From: Dehalococcoidia bacterium
Lineage (GTDB): Bacteria > Chloroflexota > Dehalococcoidia > SpSt-223
Direction: 5' to 3'
NCBI GenBank assembly: GCA_025054935.1
Contig: JANWZD010000013.1
Coordinates: forward strand, 1-64,000
Length of the DNA stretch: 64,000 nucleotides
Of the stretch, positions 3,971-27,512 are shown in pieces; the stretch's first letter is position 1, and every line of letters starts with the position of its first letter. Below the pieces are notes generated by a model that saw only the letters and a program-made list of their open reading frames with translations, made no database searches and was not told where the DNA came from. The translations under genes were made by a program, and so were the position numbers.

Positions 3971-4985
3971 GAATGCTGGCGTCGCGCCTCGCGTGGCCGT
4001 GCTCGGCTGCGGCTCGATCGGTCGGCGCCATGTTGCCAACCTGAAAGCGCTCGGGGTCGAGGCGGTTGCCGTCTACGACCCGGTGCCGGAGCGGCTGACG
4101 GAGCTGCGCGCCGCCGCCGACGTGACGGCCTTTGCCGCGCTCGACGACATCTGGCGCTGGGAGCCGACAGTTGTCTTCGTCACCGCGCCGACTAGCTGCC
4201 ACCTTGAGCTTGCGCTCGCCGCGGCAGAGCGCGGCTGCCATCTCTTCATCGAGAAGCCGCTCGCCGACCGGCTGGCCGGGACGGAGCAGCTGGTGGCGCT
4301 CGTCCGAGAGCGCGGACTGGTTTCGCTCGTCGGCTGCAATCTCCGCTTCCAGCCGGGCCTGCAGGCAGTGAAGCGGTGGCTCGAGGCGGGCGCGATCGGG
4401 CGCGTCGTCGCAGCGCGGATCGAGTTCGGCCAATATCTGCCCGACTGGCGGCCGGGGAGCGCCTATCAGGCGAGCTACAGCGCGCGGCGGGCGCTCGGCG
4501 GCGGCATCATTCTCGACGCCATCCACGAGATCGACTACGCCCGCTGGCTGCTCGGCGAGCCGCTGGGGGTGGCCTGCTTCGCCGGCACGCTCAGCCACCT
4601 CGAGATCGAGACCGAGGACACTGCCGCTCTCCTGCTGCGGCTGCCGGATGCGATCGTCGAGATCCATCTCGACTACGTCCAGCGCGTTTACAGCCGCACC
4701 TGCCAGATCATCGGCGACGAAGGGACGATCCGCTGGGACTACAGCGCGGGGGAGGCGCGCTACTACCACGCGAGCGGCGCCTGCGAGCTGGTGTTCAATC
4801 CGCCAGCGTGGACGCCGAACGAGATGTACCTCGCCGAGCTGCGCCACTTCCTCGACTGTCTCGCCGGTCGCGCGGCACCGGCGCTCGATGTCGCTGGCGG
4901 CCGGCGCGTTCTCGAAATCGCCCTTGCGGCGAAGCAGGCGGCCGCTGAAGGCCGCGTCATCGCGCTCGGAGGCGCCGATGCCTAG
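3960..4985 (+). CDS. Gfo/Idh/MocA family NAD(P)-dependent sugar oxidoreductase
   Basis: A 341-residue two-domain oxidoreductase. The N-terminal Rossmann fold has GCGSIGRRH (residues 16-24), and the family lysine is K99 in FIEKPLAD. A conserved HEIDYARWL helix follows in the C-terminal domain. It starts inside pseC (11-bp overlap) and overlaps the following aminotransferase by 8 bp, so it is translationally coupled to the nonulosonic acid operon. Within such an operon it could oxidise or reduce a ring or side-chain carbon that the adjacent class III aminotransferase then aminates; that pairing is inference. The precise substrate cannot be read from sequence. Confidence 0.88.
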   Translation: MAAENAGVAPRVAVLGCGSIGRRHVANLKALGVEAVAVYDPVPERLTELRAAADVTAFAALDDIWRWEPTVVFVTAPTSCHLELALAAAERGCHLFIEKPLADRLAGTEQLVALVRERGLVSLVGCNLRFQPGLQAVKRWLEAGAIGRVVAARIEFGQYLPDWRPGSAYQASYSARRALGGGIILDAIHEIDYARWLLGEPLGVACFAGTLSHLEIETEDTAALLLRLPDAIVEIHLDYVQRVYSRTCQIIGDEGTIRWDYSAGEARYYHASGACELVFNPPAWTPNEMYLAELRHFLDCLAGRAAPALDVAGGRRVLEIALAAKQAAAEGRVIALGGADA

Positions 4986-6294
4986 CCTCTCCGCTGCGCT
5001 GCCCGCATCGCGCAGCATCGCCCGCTCGACCGCGCTCAAAGCGCGCGCTGCCCGCCGCATTCCCACGCTCGCCCAAACGTTCAGCAAAGCGCCGAGCCAG
5101 TTCGTCCAAGGGGTCGCCCCCGTTTATCTGGAGCGCGGGGCGGGTAGCCACGTCTGGGATGTCGACGGCAACGAATATATCGACTACCCGATGGCGCTTG
5201 GGCCGGTCATTCTCGGCCACAACGAACCGGCGGTCACGGCGGCGGCGATCGCGCAGCTGGAGCGCGGGATCGCCTTTTCTCTCCCGCATCCGCTCGAGCT
5301 CGAACTGAGCGAGCTGCTCTGCGAACTGATCCCCTGCGCCGAGATGGTGCGCTTCGGCAAGAACGGCTCGGATGTTACTTCGGGGGCGGTGCGCGCCGCC
5401 CGCGCCTACACTGGGCGCGACCTCATCGCCTGCTGCGGCTACCACGGCTGGCAGGACTGGTTCATCGGGACGACAACGCGCAGCCGTGGCGTCCCGCGCG
5501 CGGTCCGCGAACTGACGAAACCGTTTGCCTACAACGATCTCGACTCGCTCGAGCGCATCTTCGCTGCCTATCCCGGCGAGGTGGCGGCAGTCATCATGGA
5601 GCCGGTCGGCGTTGTTGAGCCGGCGCCCGGCTTCCTCGAGGCGGTGCGCGACCTTGCTCATCGCCATGGCGCGCTGCTCATCTTCGATGAAGTCGTCACC
5701 GGTTTCCGGCTAGATCTTGGCGGTGCCCAAGCCCGCTATGGGGTAACGCCGGACCTCGCCTGCTTCGGCAAGGCGATGGGCAACGGCTTTCCGATCGCGG
5801 CGGTCGTCGGTCGCGCCGACGTGATGGCGATCTTCGATGAGATCTTCTTCTCGTTTACCTTCGGCGGCGATGCCCTCTCGCTGGCGGCGGCGGTCGCCAC
5901 CATCCGCGTTCTGCAGCGCGAGCCGGTCATCCCGCATCTCTGGAAGCAAGGTGCGAGGCTGAAAGAGGGCTACAACCAGATCGCGGCGGAGCTCGGCCTC
6001 ACCCGCTACACCGAATGTGTCGGGCTGCCGCCGCGGACGGTGATCACCTTCCGCGACGACCATGGAGCCGAGTCGCTGGTCTTCAAAACCCTCTTCCAGC
6101 AGGAGTGCTTGAAGCGGGGCATTCTCTTCTCGGGCAGCCAGAACCTCTGCTACCGCCACAGCGACGATGATATTGCGGTCACGCTCGCGGTCTACCGGAC
6201 GGCGTTGGAGATCCTCGCGGACGCGATCGCGGCGGGCGATGTGCTCAGCCGGCTGGAAGGGCCGGTTGTCGAGCCGGTCTTTCGGAGAGCGTGA
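4978..6294 (+). CDS. Class III PLP aminotransferase (glutamate-1-semialdehyde aminomutase-like)
   Basis: A 438-residue fold-type I PLP enzyme. GSDVTSGAVRAARAYTGR is the family PLP-phosphate and substrate loop, DEVVTGFR carries the cofactor aspartate, and K265 in FGKAMGNGFP is the expected Schiff-base lysine. It resembles glutamate-1-semialdehyde 2,1-aminomutase. However, it sits between a sugar oxidoreductase and PseG and overlaps the former by 8 bp, so a sugar-modifying role in nonulosonic acid synthesis is more likely than tetrapyrrole synthesis. The ATG at 4978 was chosen because the open frame upstream merely shadows the previous gene. It ends one base before the next start codon. Confidence 0.85.
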   Translation: MPSLSAALPASRSIARSTALKARAARRIPTLAQTFSKAPSQFVQGVAPVYLERGAGSHVWDVDGNEYIDYPMALGPVILGHNEPAVTAAAIAQLERGIAFSLPHPLELELSELLCELIPCAEMVRFGKNGSDVTSGAVRAARAYTGRDLIACCGYHGWQDWFIGTTTRSRGVPRAVRELTKPFAYNDLDSLERIFAAYPGEVAAVIMEPVGVVEPAPGFLEAVRDLAHRHGALLIFDEVVTGFRLDLGGAQARYGVTPDLACFGKAMGNGFPIAAVVGRADVMAIFDEIFFSFTFGGDALSLAAAVATIRVLQREPVIPHLWKQGARLKEGYNQIAAELGLTRYTECVGLPPRTVITFRDDHGAESLVFKTLFQQECLKRGILFSGSQNLCYRHSDDDIAVTLAVYRTALEILADAIAAGDVLSRLEGPVVEPVFRRA

Positions 6295-6295
6295 G

Positions 6296-7789
6296 ATGAC
6301 GCCCCGACGGCTGCTGATCCGGGCGGATGCGAGCGAGCGAATCGGCACCGGCCATGTGATGCGCGGGCTCGCGCTCGCCCAAGCGTGGCGGGAGAGCGGC
6401 GGCGAGGCGATCTTCGCCCTCGCGCATGGGGAAGCGGCGATCGAGGCGCGGCTGCGGGGTGAGGGATTCGAGGTAATCCGCGTAGCGGCAGTGCCCGGAA
6501 GTCCCGCTGACGTTGAAGAAACGCTCGCGATCGCGGCGCACTGGGTCGCCGTCGACGGCTATCACTTCTCGGCCGACTATTTCGCTGCCATTCACGCTGA
6601 GCGCCGGCTGCTGGTCGTCGACGACTGGGGCCACGCGGTCCACTACGACGCCGATCTCGTCCTCAACGGCAACGCCTACGCCACGCCGGCTCTTTACCCC
6701 TCGACCCCCGCGCGGCTGCTGCTTGGAACGCGCTACGTGCCGCTGCGCCGCGAGTTTCTCGACGCTATCGCCCCGCGTCCGACGCCGCCGCTGGCGCGGA
6801 CAATCCTCGTCACCTTGGGCGGCGCCGACCCGGACAACCGGACGCTGCTCGTGGTCGAGGCGCTGCGGCGCCTGACGCTGCCGTTCGAGGCGCGGGTCGT
6901 TATTGGGGCGAGCAATCCGCACGGCGCGGCCATTCGCGCTGCAGCAGCAGGGGACGGGCGGATCTCCGTGCTCGAGCATGTGCGCGACATGCCGGCGCTG
7001 ATGAGGTGGGCCGATGTCGCGGTTGCCGGCGCGGGAACAACGACGTGGGAACTGTGCGCCCTCGGCGTGCCGTCGCTGCTCGCCGTGCTCGCCGACAATC
7101 AAGCGCCTGTTGCCGAGGCGGTGGCGGCGCGAGGAGCCGCGATCGCGCTCGGCCGCCTCGATGACCAGCTCCCCGACCGCATCGCCGCCCGTCTCGACCT
7201 CCTGATGCGGTCGGAGGTGCTGCGCCTGCTGCTCTCTGAGAGCGGGCGGGCGCTAGTGGATGGCCGGGGCGCGGCGCGGGTTGTCCGCGCGATGCATGCG
7301 GCCGACCTGCGGCTCCGCCCGGCAAACTCGGAGGACTGCGACCTCGTCTATCAGATCAACGCCCACCCGGCAGTGCGGCGCTGGTCATTCACGAGTGGCG
7401 CGATTGCGCTTGAGGAGCATCGCCGATGGTTTGCTGCCAAGCTAGCCGATCCCGCGTGTCTGCTCTTTGTCGCCGAAGAGAACGGCGAGCCGGTGGGGGT
7501 GCTGCGCTACGACCTTGCTGGCGACGAAGCGACTGTCAGCATCGCGATCGATCCCCAGCGGCAGGGACGCGGCTACGGAACGGCGGTGCTTCAGGCGGGC
7601 AGCGCGCTGCTCGGCGGCCGCGCGGTGCGCGTGCGCGCGCTCATCAAGCCGGACAACGTCGCCTCGATCCGGGTCTTCACGAGCGCCGGCTACCGGCCGG
7701 CAGGGGAGACGATGGTCAACGGCGAACGGGTCCTCGTTATGGCGCAGAACCTCTCCCAAGCTGATGCGGTCTGTGGAGCAGCCTCATGA
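6296..7789 (+). CDS. pseG: Fusion of PseG-type UDP-sugar hydrolase and GNAT acetyltransferase (PseH-like)
   Basis: This 497-residue protein joins two consecutive pathway steps. Residues 1 to about 330 are PseG (UDP-2,4-diacetamido-2,4,6-trideoxy-L-altropyranose hydrolase, GT-B fold): RADASERIGTGHVMR carries the presumed catalytic H20, followed by DDWGH, TLGGADPDN and GAGTTTWE. Residues from about 333 onward are a GNAT domain starting LRLRPANSEDCDLVY, with the acetyl-CoA loop QRQGRGYGTAV and NVASIRVFTSAGY. In Campylobacter and Helicobacter, PseH and PseG are separate proteins acting in that order. The ATG at 6296 is one base after the previous stop. The gene ends in an ATGA overlap with pseI. 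Confidence 0.92.
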   Translation: MTPRRLLIRADASERIGTGHVMRGLALAQAWRESGGEAIFALAHGEAAIEARLRGEGFEVIRVAAVPGSPADVEETLAIAAHWVAVDGYHFSADYFAAIHAERRLLVVDDWGHAVHYDADLVLNGNAYATPALYPSTPARLLLGTRYVPLRREFLDAIAPRPTPPLARTILVTLGGADPDNRTLLVVEALRRLTLPFEARVVIGASNPHGAAIRAAAAGDGRISVLEHVRDMPALMRWADVAVAGAGTTTWELCALGVPSLLAVLADNQAPVAEAVAARGAAIALGRLDDQLPDRIAARLDLLMRSEVLRLLLSESGRALVDGRGAARVVRAMHAADLRLRPANSEDCDLVYQINAHPAVRRWSFTSGAIALEEHRRWFAAKLADPACLLFVAEENGEPVGVLRYDLAGDEATVSIAIDPQRQGRGYGTAVLQAGSALLGGRAVRVRALIKPDNVASIRVFTSAGYRPAGETMVNGERVLVMAQNLSQADAVCGAAS

Positions 7790-8865
7790 ATGCGATCTCC
7801 CTCGGCAGGCGGCGCGTTGGCCCGGGACAGCCAGCCTATATCGTCGCCGAACTGTCTGCTAACCACCACGGCAGCTTTGACCGCGCGGCGGCGATCATTC
7901 GGGCGGCTGCCCGCGCCGGCGCCGATGCCATCAAGCTGCAGACGTACACCCCTGACACACTGACAATCGCCTGCGATCGCCAAGAGTTCCGGATTGGCGG
8001 CACGATCTGGGAAGGACGTACGCTCTACGACCTCTACCAGGAAGCGTTTACGCCGTGGGAGTGGCACGCTGAGCTGAAGGCGATCGCAGAGGCAGCGGGC
8101 ATCGACTTCTTCTCCGCTCCTTTCGACCCGACAGCCGTCGACCTGCTCGAGGCGCTCGATATCCCCGCCTACAAGATCGCCTCATTCGAACTCGTCGACC
8201 TCCCGCTCATCCGGCGGGTGGCGCGCACCGGCAAGCCGATCATCATGTCGACCGGCATGGCGACGCTGGAGGAGATTGATGAAGCGGTCGCGGCGGCTCG
8301 CGAGGCGGGGTGTCGTGACCTTGTGCTCCTCCACTGCAACAGCGGCTATCCCGCCGCGCCGAGCGAGATGCACTTGCGGACAATCCCCTTCCTTGCAGCG
8401 CGCTACGGCGTTCCGGTCGGGCTCTCCGACCACACTCTCACCCCTACTGCCGCGATCGCTGCCGTTACGCTTGGGGCGAGCCTCGTCGAAAAGCATCTGA
8501 CGCTCTCGCGGGCGGACGGCGGCCCTGATGCTGCCTTCTCTCTTGAGCCAGATGAATTTGCTGCGCTCGTGGCTGCAATCCGCGAGACCGAAGCCGCCCT
8601 CGGCGACGTGCGCCGCGGTCCGACCGAGCGCGAGCGCGCCAGCCGGGCGCTCCGGCGCTCGCTGTTTGTCGTCGAGGATGTCGCGGCAGGCGAAGTGCTC
8701 ACTGAGCGCCACGTCCGTTCGATCCGGCCGGGGCATGGGCTGCCGCCGAAGCATCTGGAGGCGGTAATCGGACGGCGGGCGGCGTGCGCGATCTCGCGCG
8801 GGACGCCGCTGCGCTGGGAGTTGGTAGACGGCCTGCCTCAAGAGCCGAGCCTGTCCGAACGATAA
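7786..8865 (+). CDS. pseI: Pseudaminic acid synthase, PseI (NeuB family)
   Basis: A 359-residue NeuB-family synthase that condenses the PseG product with phosphoenolpyruvate to give the nine-carbon acid. The TIM barrel shows IVAELSANHHG, DAIKLQTYTPDTLT, SAPFDPTAVDLL, YKIASFEL and GLSDHTLTPT. The C-terminal SAF/antifreeze-like domain follows from about residue 290 (RRSLFVVEDVAAGEVLT). The GGTIWEGRTLYDLYQEA stretch is PseI-like rather than sialic-acid-synthase-like. It overlaps pseG by ATGA. No cytidylyltransferase (PseF) follows, so CMP activation must be encoded elsewhere or upstream of the window. Confidence 0.95.
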   Translation: MNAISLGRRRVGPGQPAYIVAELSANHHGSFDRAAAIIRAAARAGADAIKLQTYTPDTLTIACDRQEFRIGGTIWEGRTLYDLYQEAFTPWEWHAELKAIAEAAGIDFFSAPFDPTAVDLLEALDIPAYKIASFELVDLPLIRRVARTGKPIIMSTGMATLEEIDEAVAAAREAGCRDLVLLHCNSGYPAAPSEMHLRTIPFLAARYGVPVGLSDHTLTPTAAIAAVTLGASLVEKHLTLSRADGGPDAAFSLEPDEFAALVAAIRETEAALGDVRRGPTERERASRALRRSLFVVEDVAAGEVLTERHVRSIRPGHGLPPKHLEAVIGRRAACAISRGTPLRWELVDGLPQEPSLSER

Positions 8866-8920
8866 CGACCGTAGCGACCGATACGCCGTGCTGCAGTCCG
8901 CCCGAGAGGAAGAACTGACC

Positions 8921-9547
8921 ATGACGATGCTCGAAATTGCGACCTTCTCGCCCCATTTCGACCCCGAGGAAGACGACTGCGCCGAGGACCGGTATCCCGA
9001 CGGCGGGACGCAGTTCCTGCGAGGCGAGCGGATCTACCTCCGGCCGCTCGAGGTGACGGATGCGACCGCAGAGTATGTCCGCTGGCTGAACGACCCCGAG
9101 GTGACGCGCTACCTCGAGGCCGGCAAATATCCGGCGACTCGCGAGAGCGTGCGCGACTACATCCGGTCATTTCAGGGGAGCCGGACGAGCCTCGCCTTTG
9201 CCATCATCGACCGCGCCACCGGCCGCCACATCGGCAACGTCACCCTTAACCATATCGACCCGATCCACCGAACGGCCGACACAGGGATCATGATCGGCTG
9301 TAAGGAGTTTTGGGGGCGCGGCATTGCCTATGAAGCCTGGTCACTCCTCATTCGCTACGCCTTCGATCGGCTGAACCTTCGCAAGATCGTGGCCGGCGCG
9401 GTGGTTGAGAACCGCGCCAGTATCCGCACCCTCGAGAAGCTCGGCTTCCGCATCGAGGGCACGTTCCGCGAAGAGAAGTGGGTTGACGGCCGCTATGTCG
9501 ATACTGTCCGCCTCGGCCTCTTCCGCGAGGAGTTCCGCCCGAAGTAG
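8921..9547 (+). CDS. GNAT family N-acetyltransferase (RimJ/RimL-like)
   Basis: A 208-residue acetyltransferase. After a 35-residue acidic N-terminal tail comes GERIYLRPLEVTDA, then the WLNDPEVTRYLE substrate region, the acetyl-CoA-binding segment FWGRGIAYEA, and NRASIRTLEKLGFRIEG. It is the last gene of the nonulosonic acid operon, 55 bp after pseI. I chose ATG 8921 because GAGAGGAAG lies about 8 bases upstream; a GTG at 8888 in the same frame is the alternative. It could be the true PseH or add another acyl group. Two GNAT domains in one operon imply two acylation sites or a division of labour. Confidence 0.85.
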   Translation: MTMLEIATFSPHFDPEEDDCAEDRYPDGGTQFLRGERIYLRPLEVTDATAEYVRWLNDPEVTRYLEAGKYPATRESVRDYIRSFQGSRTSLAFAIIDRATGRHIGNVTLNHIDPIHRTADTGIMIGCKEFWGRGIAYEAWSLLIRYAFDRLNLRKIVAGAVVENRASIRTLEKLGFRIEGTFREEKWVDGRYVDTVRLGLFREEFRPK

Positions 9548-9932
9548 GGGCTGCTGACGCTGCGCTCTCTGGTGCCTCCCGCGCAATCAGCGGGCGGCGC
9601 GTCGCCCGCGCTGTGGAGAGGCGAGAGACGGCATTTCCCCTGCTGCTGTTCCTGCGTCCGCCGCTGCTTCAGCGCTGCACCTTCCCCTGAGCGCGTTGCG
9701 GCGCTCCCTGCGGGCGCAGCAAGCCGATGCGGCATCTCGCGCACGCTCCTTCGCCGCGCGATGGCTCGGGAAAGGCTCGAGCGGCTGCGGGTGAAGCAGA
9801 GGAGCAGGAGACGGCGCGAGCGATGCTCAGCCGCTGGGCGTGTCGACCGCCACGGCGCGCTTCGGAAGAGGCGGCGCAGTTCACGTCGGGGCGCAACGTT
9901 CTGGGAAGGGTGCTCCGTCGGCAGGACGCCGG
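9548..9932. other. GC-rich gene-free spacer with possible terminator hairpin
   Basis: I see no convincing gene in these 385 bases. The open frames crossing it are arginine-rich shadows without family features. Just after the GNAT gene a GCGGGCG/CGCCCGC stem (9590-9596 with 9603-9609, 6-base loop) could end the nonulosonic acid transcript, but there is no T-tract. Confidence 0.4.
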
Positions 9933-10184
9933 CTACGTTGCCCGCCGCAGCTGTGCCGCGAACTGACGCGCTTGCTCGTCCCACTCGCGGCTGGTGATCT
10001 CGACAACCGTGCCGGCGCGCGTCGCCTGCGCTGAAACCGTGACCCCGCCGCCTCCGCCCTCGAAGGTGACGGAGGTGGCGTCGGCAGACGTTTCGGCGAG
10101 CCCATACCGCTCACCGAAGAAGGCGCGCGCAAGCCGAAGCACGGTTGCCGGCAGGGCACGCGTCGTCGTCTCAAGACGGATCAT
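9933..10184 (-). CDS. Small conserved-looking hypothetical protein coupled to the esterase
   Basis: An 83-residue protein beginning MIRLETTTRALP. It is predicted to be mainly alpha/beta, with a polyglycine turn (EGGGGGVTVSA) between two beta-like stretches and a C-terminal helix (EWDEQARQFAAQLRRAT). No signal peptide or membrane segment is visible. The ATG at 10184 overlaps the stop of the esterase gene as ATGA, which is why I prefer it to an upstream ATG at 10214. I do not recognise the family. Translation coupling suggests it works with, or is simply co-expressed with, the esterase. Confidence 0.65.
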   Translation of the reverse strand: MIRLETTTRALPATVLRLARAFFGERYGLAETSADATSVTFEGGGGGVTVSAQATRAGTVVEITSREWDEQARQFAAQLRRAT

Positions 10185-11194
10185 GCGCGCCGCTCCATGC
10201 CGAGCGCTCGCCACACCTCGCCGGCGCGGCGAAAGGACGTCTCAACCCGATAGGTCACGCCGGAGTGTCCTCCGTCGTACTCGTCGTGCAGATGGGGGAT
10301 GCCGGCCTCCCGCAGCTGGCGTGCCAGAAGGCGCGTGCCGTAGTGGAGGTGATATTCGTCGCGGCTGCCGCAGTCGAGGTAGAGCAGGCGCAGCGAGCGG
10401 AGGGCGCTGCTGAACTGGGGGACAAGCCGCACCGGGTCATGGCGGAGCCAACGCTGCCAGACCGCTTCGCGGAGGGTGCCGGTCTCCTCATCCCACGGCA
10501 GGTCGACGCCGGCGGGCGCGTCGGGATTGGGCGAGTAGGCGGCTGCCATCGCGATCAAGCTCAGCCCCGCAATGGCATCACTCCGCACGGAGTCCTGCGC
10601 CCAGAACCACGCCACGAATTGGGCAGGGCCGCCTTGGCGGGCGATGAGATGCTGATACTTGGCGATGTCTGGCAGATAGCAGTATTCGAAATAGGCGTCG
10701 CCGCTATGGGAGATGACAAGCCCGAACGTCTCTGGCCGCTGCATGCCCATCAGAAGGGCGCCGTAGCCGCCGCTCGAATGACCGGCGACCGCACGTCCCT
10801 CCGGCGCAGCGATCGTCGCGAAGTGTCGGTCAACCCAGCTCACGAGGTCGAGCGCAATGGCGTCTTGGTAGCGGCCGTTCGTCGGCGAATTGAGATACTG
10901 GCTGCCGCCGTAACGGGTGAAGCCATCGGCGACGACGAGGAGTGCAGGCGGGATCGCCCCGCTGACGATCAGCCGGTCGAAACGTTCGAAGAGGTTCGGC
11001 TCGAAGCCGCTGACGTTTGCGCGCGAGAGCGCGGTGCCGGAGTAGCCGGGCAGCCAGTAGATCACGGGATAGCGCTGGGCCGGCGTGTAGCCGGGGGGCA
11101 GGTAGAGCGGGATCGGTCGCTCGACCGGGTCGCCGAGCCAATTCCCCGCGAGGGAGGGATGCGCCACGCGTTCGATCCGAAGCTCGCCCTGCAC
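10181..11194 (-). CDS. Alpha/beta-hydrolase, putative esterase (esterase D / enterochelin esterase type)
   Basis: A 337-residue serine hydrolase. YPVIYWLPGYSG provides the oxyanion region, GHSSGGYGAL the nucleophile elbow, and EYDGGHSGVTY near the C-terminus the catalytic histidine; an aspartate in LDCGSRDEYHLH fits the third triad member. No signal peptide is evident, so it is probably cytoplasmic. The start is a GTG at 11194, with GAGGAG six bases upstream; the much longer frame upstream is antisense to the DUF1800 gene. The substrate is unknown. It is the first gene of a two-gene operon divergent from DUF1800. Confidence 0.87.
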   Translation of the reverse strand: MQGELRIERVAHPSLAGNWLGDPVERPIPLYLPPGYTPAQRYPVIYWLPGYSGTALSRANVSGFEPNLFERFDRLIVSGAIPPALLVVADGFTRYGGSQYLNSPTNGRYQDAIALDLVSWVDRHFATIAAPEGRAVAGHSSGGYGALLMGMQRPETFGLVISHSGDAYFEYCYLPDIAKYQHLIARQGGPAQFVAWFWAQDSVRSDAIAGLSLIAMAAAYSPNPDAPAGVDLPWDEETGTLREAVWQRWLRHDPVRLVPQFSSALRSLRLLYLDCGSRDEYHLHYGTRLLARQLREAGIPHLHDEYDGGHSGVTYRVETSFRRAGEVWRALGMERRA

Positions 11195-11338
11195 GCACGT
11201 CTCCTCGAAGTGTCTCCTGCAACAGCGTACCAAACCGGACGATTCCTGGTCGCGCTGCCGTCGGGGATGAAACGATTGCGCGGCGTGGTTCGTGTTGACG
11301 ATGGAAGCCCTTGAGCGGCTCGCGTGGAGGAAGGCGGA

Positions 11339-12688
11339 ATGCCTGTGGTCGCCGATCCGACCGTCCGGTCGGTCATCTTGGAACGCTCTGCCGAGACATC
11401 GCGCATCGCCCACCTGCTGCGCCGCGCGGCGTTTGGAGCAAGCCCGACAGAACTTGCCCGGTCGGTCGCCCTCGGGTTTGAGCGGACGGTCGATGCGCTC
11501 CTCGACTTCGATGCCGTTCCCGATATGCCCGACCCGGCGGCCGTGATCCCGAACTTCGATCCCGAACGGATCGCCAGCATGCAGCAGCGATGGGTCTATC
11601 GTCTCGTCGGCTCCCCCAAGCCGCTGCAGGAGAAGATGACCCTCTTCTGGCACAGCCACTTTGCGACCGCCAACTCGAAGGTGAACAACGCTGGCTGGAT
11701 GTGGAACCAGAACGAGCTGTTCCGTCGGCATGCCCTCGGCAACTTCCGGACGCTCGTCCACGAGGTGGCCAAGGACCCGGCAATGATGCGCTGGCTTGAC
11801 ACAGTCACCTCGAAGAAGGGCCGCCCAAACGAGAACTTCGCCCGCGAGCTGTTCGAACTGTTCACGATGGGCATCGGCAACTACACCGAGGAAGACATCA
11901 AAGAGGCGGCGCGCGCCTTCACCGGCTGGGAGGTCCGGAACGACGCCTTCTTTTTCAACCGCGCCCAGCATGATAGCGGGCAGAAGACGATCTTCGGCCG
12001 GACAGGCGCGTTTACGGGCGAGCAGGTGATCGATCTCGCGGTGTCTCATCCCGCGACGGCGCGCTTCATTGCCACCAAGCTGTATGTCTACTTCGTTGAC
12101 GATCATCCAAGCAAGCAGACCATCGACCGCCTCGCCACCATCTTTACTCAGAACGGCTACGAACTGAAGCCGCTAGTGCGGGCGATCCTGCTCTCGCCTG
12201 AGTTTTCGAGCCCTGCTGCCTATCACGCCAAGATCAAGAGCCCGGTCGACTTTGTCATCGGCTCAGTGAAGGCCCTCGGCATTCCGGCTTTTCCTCAGCT
12301 TGCCGCTACGCTCACGTCGCTTGGACAGGCGTTGTTCAATCCGCCGACCGTGAAGGGCTGGCCGGAGGGCGTCGAATGGATCAGCGCCTCTTCGCTGCTC
12401 GCGCGCCAGAACTTCGCGAATCAGTTGACGAGTGGCCGCAACGCTGCACGTAGGCCATGGATCACGCCGGCAGAGGATCTCGCCGCGCTCGGCTTGCGCA
12501 AAGACGAGGAGGTGGTCGATTTCTATCTCAATCTCCTCGTCGATGGGGATGTTACGCCCGCAATGCGCAACGCTCTCCTCGCCTATCTCGCCAGCGGGTC
12601 GCGCGCGCCGGGCCGCCGGGGGTGGGACGGCAAGGTGCGCGGGCTGATCCATCTCATCATGTCCTCACCGGTCTACCAGTTCAACTGA
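11339..12688 (+). CDS. DUF1800 domain-containing protein
   Basis: A 449-residue protein of the DUF1800 family, which is usually encoded directly before a DUF1501 protein, as here. Family hallmarks are AHLLRRAAFGASP near the N-terminus, LFWHSHFATA, the strongly conserved RPNENFARELFELFT with the following AARAFTGW, and VKGWPEG later. No signal peptide is seen. The biochemical role is not established. ATG 11339 was chosen over an in-frame GTG at 11324 because GGAGGAAGG sits about five bases before it. The next gene follows after 23 bp, so the two are co-transcribed. Confidence 0.92.
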   Translation: MPVVADPTVRSVILERSAETSRIAHLLRRAAFGASPTELARSVALGFERTVDALLDFDAVPDMPDPAAVIPNFDPERIASMQQRWVYRLVGSPKPLQEKMTLFWHSHFATANSKVNNAGWMWNQNELFRRHALGNFRTLVHEVAKDPAMMRWLDTVTSKKGRPNENFARELFELFTMGIGNYTEEDIKEAARAFTGWEVRNDAFFFNRAQHDSGQKTIFGRTGAFTGEQVIDLAVSHPATARFIATKLYVYFVDDHPSKQTIDRLATIFTQNGYELKPLVRAILLSPEFSSPAAYHAKIKSPVDFVIGSVKALGIPAFPQLAATLTSLGQALFNPPTVKGWPEGVEWISASSLLARQNFANQLTSGRNAARRPWITPAEDLAALGLRKDEEVVDFYLNLLVDGDVTPAMRNALLAYLASGSRAPGRRGWDGKVRGLIHLIMSSPVYQFN

Positions 12689-24018: not shown

Positions 24019-24163
24019 GGACCGCTCCTCCGGAGATGCCGTTGGAACCAAAACTGTAGCCGATTGCTCCCAATTCCAGCGCACCTCCTGCGCGGATGAC
24101 CGGTATACTCAAGGATTGCCGCTGCCGGCAGTGAAGCGCGCAGACTTGCCGGAAGGAGCGTCC

Positions 24164-27100
24164 ATGCAGGACGCGTGGCTCGACCCGTATAGGGAGCTGT
24201 ACCCCTCCTTGCCGACGCGCTGGGTCGCCTATTCAACTGAACAGTTCCTCTTTCGGTATCCCGCCTCCGCGCCGCTCGACCTGAAAGTCCGAGAGAGTGC
24301 TAAGGAGATCGAGCACCTGGTCGGCGTGCTCACGGAGACGCTGCAGTTGCGGCGCCTGCCGGCCGAGCCGCTGGAAGTGGTGCTGACCGCCTCCGAGGAA
24401 GACGAACCGCCCGCGGAAAGCGCGACCGGCGCTCGCTGCCTTCAGGTTGTCTGCCGCGCCGACACCCCGGTGGTCGATATTGCGCGGGCGGTTGTGCAGC
24501 GGCTGCTGGTCGAGGCGTGGGGCGCCAACGCTGCCAGAGCCGACCTCGTCGTCGACGGTCTGCTCGGCATCGCCAGCGAACTGGCTCGCACTGGAAGCCT
24601 CGCCAAGCTGAACGCCTCCCTCCACGCTGAGCGCGAGCGAGGAGTGAGGGTCGGCCTTGCCGAGCTGTTCGCCGGCGTGGCGGTGCTGCCGCGTCCGCAC
24701 TATGCGCGCCTCGCAACTTCGTTTCTCGGCTATCTTGTCACGGCCTACGGCCCCGCGCGCGTGGCCGACCTCGCCCGGGCGTTCGACCGCGCAAGCCCCG
24801 GGCGCAGCTTCGAAATCGCCTTCGGCAAGCCTCCGGCAGCGCTCGAGCAGGAATGGCTCGCTTCGTTGCGCGCGAGCCGCTTGCGTGTCCTCGGCAGCGA
24901 CGGGATGCTCGCGCGGCTGCTGCCGCTTGTCCGCGCTCATGCCGGGCTCGTCGCCGTCCTCCTCCTCGCGGTGCTGCTCGGCGTGGTCTACAGCCTGAGC
25001 GAGCCGTTTCTTATCAAGGCCCTCGTCGAGGAGGTGGCGCTCGCCCGCTCAGCCGACCCTGCGCCGAGAAGCGGCGGGGGCGTGGCAGTGGTTCTCCTGC
25101 TCCTGACCGTCGCCGCGGCTATTCAGGGAGTTGGCCGGCTCCTCACGGCGCGCACTGGCGCCCTCTTGGGCGCTGCGGTCGCCGGCGACCTTCGGCTGCG
25201 GCTGTTCGAGCGGATCCAGGCGATGGCGCTCGACCCCTTCGACCGCTCGCGCGCGGCAGAAGCGCTCACGCGCCTGAGCACCGAGGTCGACTTTGTTGAG
25301 ACGGTGCTCCGTCGGTCGGTGCCCGTCCTGATCTCGGCGCTGCTGACCCTCGTCCTCGCCCTCCTCCTGATCGCGGTCTTCATCAACTGGCGAGTAAGCC
25401 TCATCGCCGCGCTCGTTGTCGCCGGGCTGGCGCTGCTGGCGCGCCGGTTCGGCCGCCTGGTCACCGCCGCCAATGCGCGGCGTGCGGAGGCCAAGACGGC
25501 GCTGACCGCTGTTCTCGACGAGAGCATCCTCACGGCTGTCGTGGCGACGGTATTCGGTCTCAACGCGCAACGGCGTCAGACGATGCGGCGCGCTCTCGAG
25601 ACGGTCGCCGCTTCCGCTAGGCAGGTCGCGCTCGTAACCGGGGCGCAACGCGCGGTCGGCATGCTTGCTCTCGTCGTGCTGTACCTCGCCGCCCTAGGAG
25701 GAGGAGCGCTGGCGCTGAGCGGGGCGCTCACGGAAGGGCTGGCGATCATCGCCCTCGTTTTGCTGTTCCGGCCGATGGCGCAGGCGCTAGGACAGCTCGC
25801 CACGGTGTCTGACCCGCTTCAGCGGGTGACTGGCGCTCTGGCGCAGATTGGCGACGTGCTCAACCAGCCGGTGGAGAGAGGGGAAGAGGAAGGGGCGCAC
25901 CCGCTGCCGCTGCTCGAGCGGGAGATCCGCTTTGACAACGTCTCCTTCTCCTATCTTGCGGGGCAGCCCGTGCTCGACCGGATCGATCTCGTCATCCCCG
26001 CCGGCACCACCTTTGCGATCGTTGGTCTCAGCGGGGCGGGCAAGTCGACTATCGTCCGTCTCCTGAGCCGCCTCGTCGACCCGACGATCGGCAGCGTGCG
26101 GTTCGATGACTACGACCTCCGCATGGTCAGCCGCGCCTCGCTCTATGCGCAGATGGGGATTGTCTTCCAGCAGCCGGTGCTCTTCGACCGGTCGATTAGG
26201 GAGAACATCCAAGTGGGCAAGCCGGACGCCAGCGACGCAGAGATCGAAGCGGCACTGCGCGCGGTCGACCTATTCGACCTCGTCTCTTCGCTGCCTCAGG
26301 GGATCGAGACGCGCATCGGCGCCGGCGGGGTCCATCTCTCGCTCGGGCAGCGCCAGCGGCTGGCGTTGGCGCGAGCCCTTGTCCGCCAGCCGCGGCTGCT
26401 CGTGCTCGACGAGGCGACGGCAGCGCTCGACCCCGAGGCTGAGGCGGCGCTGTTCGAGTTGCTTCGCAAGACGGCGGACGGCCGAACGGTTGTCTTCCTG
26501 ACCCAGCGGGTTGCCACTGCCCGTCATGCCGACCAGATCGCGGTGCTCAGTCGCGGGCGGATTGTCCAGCAGGGGACCCACGACGAACTGGTCGCGGAAG
26601 AGGGGCTGTATCGCCGGCTGTGGCAGGCGCAAAGCGAAACCCTCGCCGAAGGGCGGGTCGCCGACCCGGCGCTCATCGCTGCTCGGCTCAAGGCGATCCC
26701 CCTCTTCCGCGACTTCGACGAAGCCGGACTGGCGGCGCTCGCCGCGCGGCTGGCGACCGAGGAATTGAACGCGAACGAGATCGTCTTCGCGCAGGGAGAT
26801 CCTGCCGACAAGCTGTATCTCATCCTCTCTGGCCAAGTCGAGGTGACGACGGTTGGGCCGGCCGGCGAGGAGCGGCTGTTCGCCGTGCTGAACGAAGGAG
26901 ACCACTTCGGCGAAATGGCGCTCCGCCGCGAATCGCCGCGCACCACCACGGCCCGAACGCGCACGCCGACCGTCCTGCTTTCGCTCGACCGGCGCCAAAT
27001 TTTGAAGAGCATCGCCGACGTTCTCGCGATCCCTGATGCGCACCGTTCGCTGATCCGGTGGCTGCTCCGGCGCGAGTCCGCGAGCCTCGCCGAAATCGTG

Positions 27101-27280
27101 CAGCAGCTGAATGTCGGCATCGACGAGGCGCTCCGGACGGTCGAAAGCCTCATCCAGCGCGGTTTTCTCACCGAGGTCGAGGTCGACGGGCAGGTGCGCT
27201 ACCGCGCCCGACTGGCTCCCCGTCGCGGCCGCCATCTGCCGGCCGGCATCTGGCGCGCCCTCGACCGTGAAGAGAACTAA
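24164..27280 (+). CDS. Multidomain ABC exporter with N-terminal degenerate peptidase-MA-like domain and C-terminal cNMP-binding and winged-helix domains
   Basis: A 1038-residue fusion. Residues 1 to about 245 resemble the gluzincin peptidase MA family, including the C-terminal YG-x-DLARAFDRA and FGKPPAALEQEW helices, but the expected HExxH is replaced (VVQRLLVEA, about 109-117), so it is probably inactive. Residues about 262-550 form a type I exporter membrane domain. The nucleotide-binding domain has GLSGAGKST at about 621, LSLGQRQRLAL at about 725 and LLVLDEATAAL at about 745. Residues about 870-945 are a cyclic-nucleotide-binding fold (FAQGD, LILSGQVEV, GDHFGEMALRRESPRTTTA). A winged helix (LAEIVQQLNVG, RTVESLIQRGFL) ends the protein. 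ATG 24164 has GGAAGGAG upstream. Lipid or peptide export gated by a nucleotide or internal sensor is inference. Confidence 0.88.
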   Translation: MQDAWLDPYRELYPSLPTRWVAYSTEQFLFRYPASAPLDLKVRESAKEIEHLVGVLTETLQLRRLPAEPLEVVLTASEEDEPPAESATGARCLQVVCRADTPVVDIARAVVQRLLVEAWGANAARADLVVDGLLGIASELARTGSLAKLNASLHAERERGVRVGLAELFAGVAVLPRPHYARLATSFLGYLVTAYGPARVADLARAFDRASPGRSFEIAFGKPPAALEQEWLASLRASRLRVLGSDGMLARLLPLVRAHAGLVAVLLLAVLLGVVYSLSEPFLIKALVEEVALARSADPAPRSGGGVAVVLLLLTVAAAIQGVGRLLTARTGALLGAAVAGDLRLRLFERIQAMALDPFDRSRAAEALTRLSTEVDFVETVLRRSVPVLISALLTLVLALLLIAVFINWRVSLIAALVVAGLALLARRFGRLVTAANARRAEAKTALTAVLDESILTAVVATVFGLNAQRRQTMRRALETVAASARQVALVTGAQRAVGMLALVVLYLAALGGGALALSGALTEGLAIIALVLLFRPMAQALGQLATVSDPLQRVTGALAQIGDVLNQPVERGEEEGAHPLPLLEREIRFDNVSFSYLAGQPVLDRIDLVIPAGTTFAIVGLSGAGKSTIVRLLSRLVDPTIGSVRFDDYDLRMVSRASLYAQMGIVFQQPVLFDRSIRENIQVGKPDASDAEIEAALRAVDLFDLVSSLPQGIETRIGAGGVHLSLGQRQRLALARALVRQPRLLVLDEATAALDPEAEAALFELLRKTADGRTVVFLTQRVATARHADQIAVLSRGRIVQQGTHDELVAEEGLYRRLWQAQSETLAEGRVADPALIAARLKAIPLFRDFDEAGLAALAARLATEELNANEIVFAQGDPADKLYLILSGQVEVTTVGPAGEERLFAVLNEGDHFGEMALRRESPRTTTARTRTPTVLLSLDRRQILKSIADVLAIPDAHRSLIRWLLRRESASLAEIVQQLNVGIDEALRTVESLIQRGFLTEVEVDGQVRYRARLAPRRGRHLPAGIWRALDREEN

Positions 27281-27371: not shown

Positions 27372-27512
27372 ATGGCAAGGCAGGCGCTCTCCCGCGCCGA
27401 GCGGCCGCTCGTGCTTCCCGGTGTGCTCGGCGGGGTAGTGATTATCCTGCTCGGCACTCGGCTGGGCAGAATAGGGGGCGGCGGCGCTCAGCCGGCGCCC
27501 GCCGCAGCTTAG
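27372..27512 (+). CDS. Possible 46-residue single-pass membrane protein
   Basis: The sequence encodes MARQALSRAERPLVLPG, then a hydrophobic stretch (VLGGVVIILLGTRL), then a short Gly/Ala/Pro tail. A basic N-terminus followed by about 15 hydrophobic residues suggests a small inner-membrane protein. GGAG lies five bases before the ATG. It starts 91 bp after the ABC fusion and could be co-transcribed. Its end overlaps the convergent M20 gene by a few bases. There is no family match I can name, and it could be chance. Confidence 0.35.
   Translation: MARQALSRAERPLVLPGVLGGVVIILLGTRLGRIGGGGAQPAPAAA

Follow-up and report, generated by a model that had tools for sequence, protein, structure and literature searches.

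Positions 24164 to 27280 of the plus strand of the window, the whole 64,000-nucleotide stretch analysed here (contig JANWZD010000013.1 of a Dehalococcoidia bacterium), form one open frame of 1038 codons and a stop codon (27278 to 27280). The product joins a degenerate peptidase domain, an ATP-binding cassette (ABC) exporter, a cyclic-nucleotide-binding domain (CNBD) and a winged helix in a single chain. The N-terminal domain is homologous to metallopeptidases of the peptidase-MA family, has lost their HExxH motif, is kept in fusion with the exporter in relatives, and is under purifying selection. The best explanation overall, which we hold tentatively, is that this pseudo-peptidase docks cargo for a nucleotide-gated ABC half-exporter.

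Domain architecture of the fusion protein

The N-terminal domain (residues 1-245, 24164 to 24898) is followed by the transmembrane region of an ABC exporter (residues 265-533, 24956 to 25762; PF00664, ABC_membrane, E 8.3e-23), an ATPase domain (residues 604-753, 25973 to 26422; PF00005, ABC_tran, E 4.8e-30) and a CNBD (residues 866-948, 26759 to 27007; PF00027, cNMP_binding, E 2.3e-23, 82 bits). All three Pfam families pass their cut-offs in the window protein, and with a transmembrane region and an ATPase on one chain it is a type IV ABC exporter. The winged helix lies at approximately residues 958-1017 (27035 to 27214).

A full-length ortholog, L001 (Dehalococcoidia bacterium KatS3mg060), is 64% identical and belongs with G003, which is of the same genus as the window genome. 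G044, the third genome from that genus, has neither a match to the N-terminal domain nor a full-length match. An N-terminal part made as a separate protein is ruled out by the single frame with its single good start, and by the ortholog, which is also one frame. A fusion created by sequencing or assembly is likewise ruled out, because the same chain occurs in another assembly (L001/G003) and 14 further fusions are found. The four-module, 1038-residue chain described by the sequence-only reading is therefore one real frame with all its modules, but not every fusion has the winged helix: it adjoins the CNBD only in the window protein and that of G003 (L001), two of 16 fusions.

The N-terminal domain is a degenerate peptidase

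Profile-profile comparison by hhalign of four fused N-terminal domains with 12 HExxH domains gives a probability of 98.4%, and with 13 fused domains 99.2% (E 9.1e-20, 213 columns). Two of the 12 HExxH proteins (L136 and L117) were scanned with Pfam, and both are Peptidase_MA_2. From these sets, the wide alignment holds 12 of the 13 fused domains (A4) and 10 of the 12 with HExxH (A3). In a plain Pfam scan residues 1-245 of the window protein match no family, and a relative, L139, reaches only E 0.021 against PF13485, under the cut-off. No C39 match is found for the domain by Pfam or in the hhalign comparison, and its sequence has no match in the PDB up to E 10. Judged by its sequence profiles, the domain is a degenerate homolog of peptidase-MA (PF13485) and not an active peptidase.

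In the window protein the HExxH site reads AVVQR (residues 109-113, 24488 to 24502). The motif is absent from all 15 rows that are readable at the site in an alignment of the 16 fusions, which rules out a loss limited to the window genome. In none of 80 loci, some of which are the same gene twice, does a frame with HExxH also carry an ABC motif. The missing HExxH and the peptidase-MA identity had both been proposed by the sequence-only reading, and both are upheld; the similarity is evident at the level of profiles, and nothing points to the domain being expressed separately.

Peptidase_MA_2 proteins of Chloroflexota, such as L136 (G000:C2), are homologous over the whole domain and share its W and EG/DG landmarks. 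The ones seen stand alone, carry HExxH and, by eye, have a signal peptide and a C-terminal membrane anchor; HExxH and a signal peptide are both missing from the window domain. No transmembrane-like segment stands ahead of residue 249. L136 is coded by the window's own genome (G000), apart from the fusion.

Between the window gene and L001, the ratio of nonsynonymous to synonymous substitution rates (dN/dS) is 0.23 in the N-terminal domain, 0.45 in the transmembrane region, 0.16 in the ATPase, 0.08 in the CNBD and 0.18 in the winged helix, each value averaging over both lineages. dS is about 0.8-1.1 across the domains. The N-terminal value is half that of the transmembrane region, and the CNBD is the most constrained. 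A ratio of 0.23 in a domain without HExxH implies that the dead domain is kept for something, and suggests that a former protease domain under purifying selection now serves to handle cargo and no longer cuts it.

Distribution and phylogeny of the fusions

A survey for the same architecture recovered 16 fusions in 12 Chloroflexota genomes, namely those of the window, G003, G025, G056, G514, G458, G416, G521, G474, G479 (two), G451 (three) and G584 (two). The G416 fusion is cut by a contig end, and one of the two in G584 is partial. Matches to the N-terminal domain are present in 24 of 393 genomes of the class, four of which hold fusions (G000, G003, G025 and G056); the remaining matches include many stand-alone HExxH proteins and several weak ones that lack HExxH and look like chance. 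A four-row profile finds matches (E <= 0.001) in 142 of 400 genomes of the phylum. Nine of these hold fusions and the other inspected ones have HExxH proteins, the inspection covering the returned loci. In G458's class, with 29 genomes, eight match at 1e-10: six carry fusions, and the other two have HExxH proteins but no fusion.

Outside these sets, genomes were reached via 34 of 79 other loci (two are Anaerolineales/Anaerolineae by title). No fusion is present in these 34 genomes; eight match, and in each of them the matched frame has HExxH but no ABC motif. Among 246 genomes sampled from the phylum of L002 (G739, titled Planctomycetota) there are three matches and no fusions; two matches have HExxH, and one is frame-broken with neither motif. 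The phylum of G757 (L028, titled Actinomycetes; 296 genomes sampled) yields one fusion, in G1173 (L229), in which an N-terminal domain without HExxH runs into the transmembrane region. A stop and a frameshift interrupt its frame, through either assembly error or pseudogene formation.

The CNBD passes the Pfam cut-off in 11 of the 16 fusions; a contig end cuts the G514 fusion within its CNBD and the G416 fusion before it. L184 has no CNBD at E 1e-4, and L179 and L182, both outside the Pfam scan, end soon after the ATPase. The fusions of G025 and G056 start with a double zinc ribbon, and that of G025 ends in an FHA domain.

Phylogenetic reconstruction used 38 exporter cores: 15 of the 16 fusions (one is cut by a contig end), seven exporters from the window's own genome, and 16 hand-picked from the 79 other loci. 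The 15 fused cores and the unfused L002 share one branch with support of 96/93. Outside it are 21 unfused exporters and own_L088, which is unfused, has a long branch and stands at the drawn root. The label "fused" requires two changes on this tree, against a mean of 12.1 when labels are shuffled. L002, an exporter-CNBD protein from a Planctomycetota metagenome-assembled genome, has a CNBD at its C-terminus whose cassette is very similar, but no winged helix and no N-terminal domain in its frame or elsewhere in its 13.7-kb locus. From its position inside the fused branch it follows that the domain was lost there, or that exporter and CNBD are the older pair.

The ATPase, the CNBD and the winged helix

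The ATPase had been described from the sequence as intact, and this is not confirmed. It has Walker A, the Q-loop and Walker B (with Glu750), but its signature motif is LSLGQ and the His of the H-loop is replaced by Gln781 (26504 to 26506). At this position 11 of the 14 other readable fusions (L001 and ten more) have His and three have Gln. In G479, G451 and G584 the CNBD-bearing fusion has a degenerate Walker B, signature and H-loop (L178, L183 and L181). The same genomes carry, on other contigs, a fusion with canonical ATPase motifs that ends soon after the ATPase and has no room for a CNBD (L179, L184 and L182). The two kinds are perhaps halves of a heterodimer, to judge from their motifs.

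The phosphate cassette of the CNBD reads FGEMAL...PRTTT in the alignment, and its earlier description as intact-looking is confirmed. A PF00027 domain with such a cassette is a CNBD by its sequence, and nucleotide binding is predicted.

In Pfam the winged helix stays under the cut-off in the window protein (TrmB) and exceeds the MarR cut-off in L001. An AlphaFold2 model of residues 826-1038 shows residues 958-1017 as an H-H-H-E-E block with a predicted local distance difference test score (pLDDT) of 70-88; the CNBD half of the model is of low confidence. Foldseek searches with this fragment give only two matches at E <= 0.001, both Clr-cAMP-DNA complexes, and the further matches include many MarR/ArsR winged helices. 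At the thresholds used no HTH_Crp match is listed for the window protein or L001. With a CNBD that is apparently not followed by an HTH_Crp domain, the protein would not be classed as a CRP/FNR regulator.

Gene order around the fusions of relatives

Signalling genes adjoin some of the fusions. The order in G056 is fusion, CRP (CNBD plus HTH_Crp), GAF and subtilase, and in G521 it is subtilase, fusion, CRP and a RyR/TPR-S/cyclase-domain protein, with successive genes overlapping by a few bases. L180 shows this run of subtilase, fusion, CRP and RyR/TPR-S/cyclase-domain genes (4965-11669), with a frame that looks TIR-like by eye further on. G416 has GAF, subtilase and fusion, and G458 has fusion and CRP. 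In G474 the fusion lies between RimK-like ATP-grasp genes on both sides, together with a protein kinase (L177, 4990-10985). An extracytoplasmic function (ECF) sigma factor-like gene, recognised by eye, stands directly after the CNBD-bearing fusion in L178 (4129-5000), L183 (4287-5003) and L181 (3249-4153), and in L178 and L181 an anti-sigma-like gene, also recognised by eye, follows as well.

A CRP-family gene is directly downstream of three of the 14 fusions whose downstream side is readable, and the three genomes concerned have 7, 11 and 19 HTH_Crp_2 matches. Cyclase-domain matches are common, with 1-26 per genome and one in the window's own genome (L209). Near the G025 fusion, a cyclase fragment identified by eye lies where the contig ends and is not counted.

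Proposed mechanism and known systems

The protein would be an ABC half-exporter of the cytoplasmic membrane with regulatory modules at both ends. It probably acts as a homodimer, since its genome has no second fused exporter. From the topology of type IV exporters, the N-terminal domain, which has no zinc or catalytic motif, would sit on the cytosolic side directly ahead of the first transmembrane helix. There it most likely docks cargo in a chaperone-like manner, as the C39-like domain (CLD) does in HlyB. Binding of a nucleotide signal by the C-terminal CNBD would gate ATP-driven export, as proposed for HetC, and the winged helix would extend the CNBD in the window lineage, more probably for protein contacts than for DNA binding. 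Binding or chaperoning of a peptide by the N-terminal domain is consistent with the data but unproven. The same is true of nucleotide gating, on which only some of the relatives' neighbourhoods bear.

Two known systems share the logic that makes cargo docking and CNBD gating the best reading. C39 and C39-like domains stand directly ahead of the exporter core and dock cargo in PCAT1 and HlyB, and the C39-like domain of HlyB is inactive and tethers unfolded cargo (PMC8277102). The window protein resembles HlyB in having an inactive peptidase-derived domain directly before the core. It differs in that the HlyB domain has a cysteine-protease fold and HlyB has no CNBD, whereas the window protein has a peptidase-MA family domain and a CNBD. 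HetC of Nostoc PCC 7120 consists of a CNBD, an active C39 domain and an exporter; its CNBD binds ppGpp in vitro and is required in vivo (PMC10986499). Here too a peptidase domain, an ABC exporter and a CNBD are on one chain, but in HetC the peptidase is an active cysteine peptidase (C39) and the CNBD is N-terminal (PMC10986499), whereas in the window protein the domain is of metallopeptidase type and dead, the CNBD is C-terminal, and a winged helix is present. With no C39 or C39-like domain detected, the window protein would not be a PCAT or a HlyB with CLD by definition; the comparison concerns how it may work, and we infer peptide export by analogy. No membrane-fusion partner or RTX cargo was noticed beside the window gene, and no genome-wide search was made for either.

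That no described protein has all four modules, as the sequence-only reading supposed, stands in searches of the open-licence PMC literature, from which only HetC and the C39/CLD work emerged as relevant to such an architecture; exporter, peptidase domain and CNBD are, however, already known together in HetC (PMC10986499). In the open-licence PMC literature searched, protease-derived front ends of exporters are C39 or C39-like. If the proposed reading is true, a second, unrelated protease family occupies this place, always dead and under selection, which would mean that docking, not cutting, is the purpose of such front ends. The pseudo-peptidase exporter would then be an independent test case for cargo docking, and its C-terminal CNBD would allow a soluble fragment to be used to test the kind of nucleotide control that has been proposed for HetC.

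A broader claim goes with this reading and is more doubtful. It holds that a clan MA metalloprotease was turned into a cargo receiver in a nucleotide-gated peptide exporter, at the position for which HlyB-type exporters recruited the unrelated C39 fold, and that in some Chloroflexota the operon of this exporter also includes a dedicated regulator, a subtilase and a cyclase. This would be an independent invention of a pseudo-peptidase exporter, wired to second-messenger signalling.

Several observations weigh against docking and gating. The window gene is flanked by a gene on the opposite strand upstream and by what is left of a DUF308 gene downstream; no cargo was found, and the signalling genes seen beside relatives are absent from its locus. 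The signalling association is patchy and is weak evidence: an intact cyclase occurs in one locus only (G521), in a genome with seven matches, so this single neighbour could be due to chance. The AlphaFold2 model of the N-terminal domain, built from two sequences, is poor (pLDDT 47), and Foldseek with it gives no match at E <= 0.001, with several metallopeptidases among 50 insignificant rows. Structure prediction, which the sequence-only reading had suggested for residues 1-245, thus yielded only this poor model, and a gluzincin fold is putative. Gln781 and LSLGQ may lower ATPase activity. All NCBIfam exporter models score far under their cut-offs, and the top scores mix a lipid exporter (MsbA, 322 bits where the cut-off is 602) with a protein exporter (HlyB, nearly equal), so peptide cargo is something we infer.

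Alternative explanations

Among the alternatives, the one that survives best, although we think it unlikely, takes the N-terminal domain as purely structural or regulatory, a dimer contact or ATPase gate, in an exporter that moves a lipid, glycan or small molecule and has no peptide cargo. The top score of MsbA and the lack of an adjoining peptide gene agree with it, as do the paired degenerate and canonical fusions of G479, G451 and G584, whose division of labour points to regulation. The position of the domain is nevertheless that of the cargo-docking C39 domains and CLDs (PMC8277102), and its parent family would be a peptide-binding fold.

The C-terminal half could instead belong to a membrane-bound sensor-regulator that relays nucleotide binding and transport state to a DNA-binding winged helix. 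CRP/FNR proteins likewise combine a CNBD with a winged helix, and the two Clr complexes found by Foldseek fit this idea. A query with the winged helix and its tail matches nine of 151 phylum genomes at E <= 0.001. Small winged-helix proteins with a similar tail are found in G402 (L222) and G506 (L223) beside MinD/ParA-like genes; the gene in L222 is near an ATP-grasp gene, and the one in G506 overlaps a CNBD gene, which also speaks for a regulator. Yet most of the fusions manage without a winged helix, and its predicted third helix starts with acidic residues (IDEALRTVE, from sequence reading), which makes this explanation improbable.

Decay of the window copy, as a gene on its way out, is more improbable still: it would account for Gln781 and LSLGQ, the shrunken DUF308 neighbour and the lack of a copy in G044, but the frame is open across 1038 codons and dN/dS is well under 1 in every domain, even if averaged over both lineages. 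Enzymatic activity retained through other residues is very improbable, for although the position that holds the distal Glu in the EG motif of relatives is Asp or Glu in 14 of 16 rows (Asp131 of a DG in the window protein, 24554 to 24556), no His or Glu is conserved in the HExxH place and only G132, F187 and W231 are invariant across 13 fused rows.

Other features of the window locus

Downstream of the fusion gene, a 46-codon frame (27372 to 27512, plus strand) is the remnant of a gene for a DUF308 (HdeD-like) membrane protein with its middle deleted. L001 has the same surroundings with the DUF308 gene intact (189 amino acids), which rules out the 46-codon frame as a gene for a small peptide cargo. 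The conserved C-terminal tail of the fusion protein, RRGRHLPAGIWRALD, includes a short helix (27242 to 27265) modelled with low confidence. A Shine-Dalgarno-like sequence, GGAAGGAG (24151 to 24158), lies five bases 5' of the ATG at 24164.

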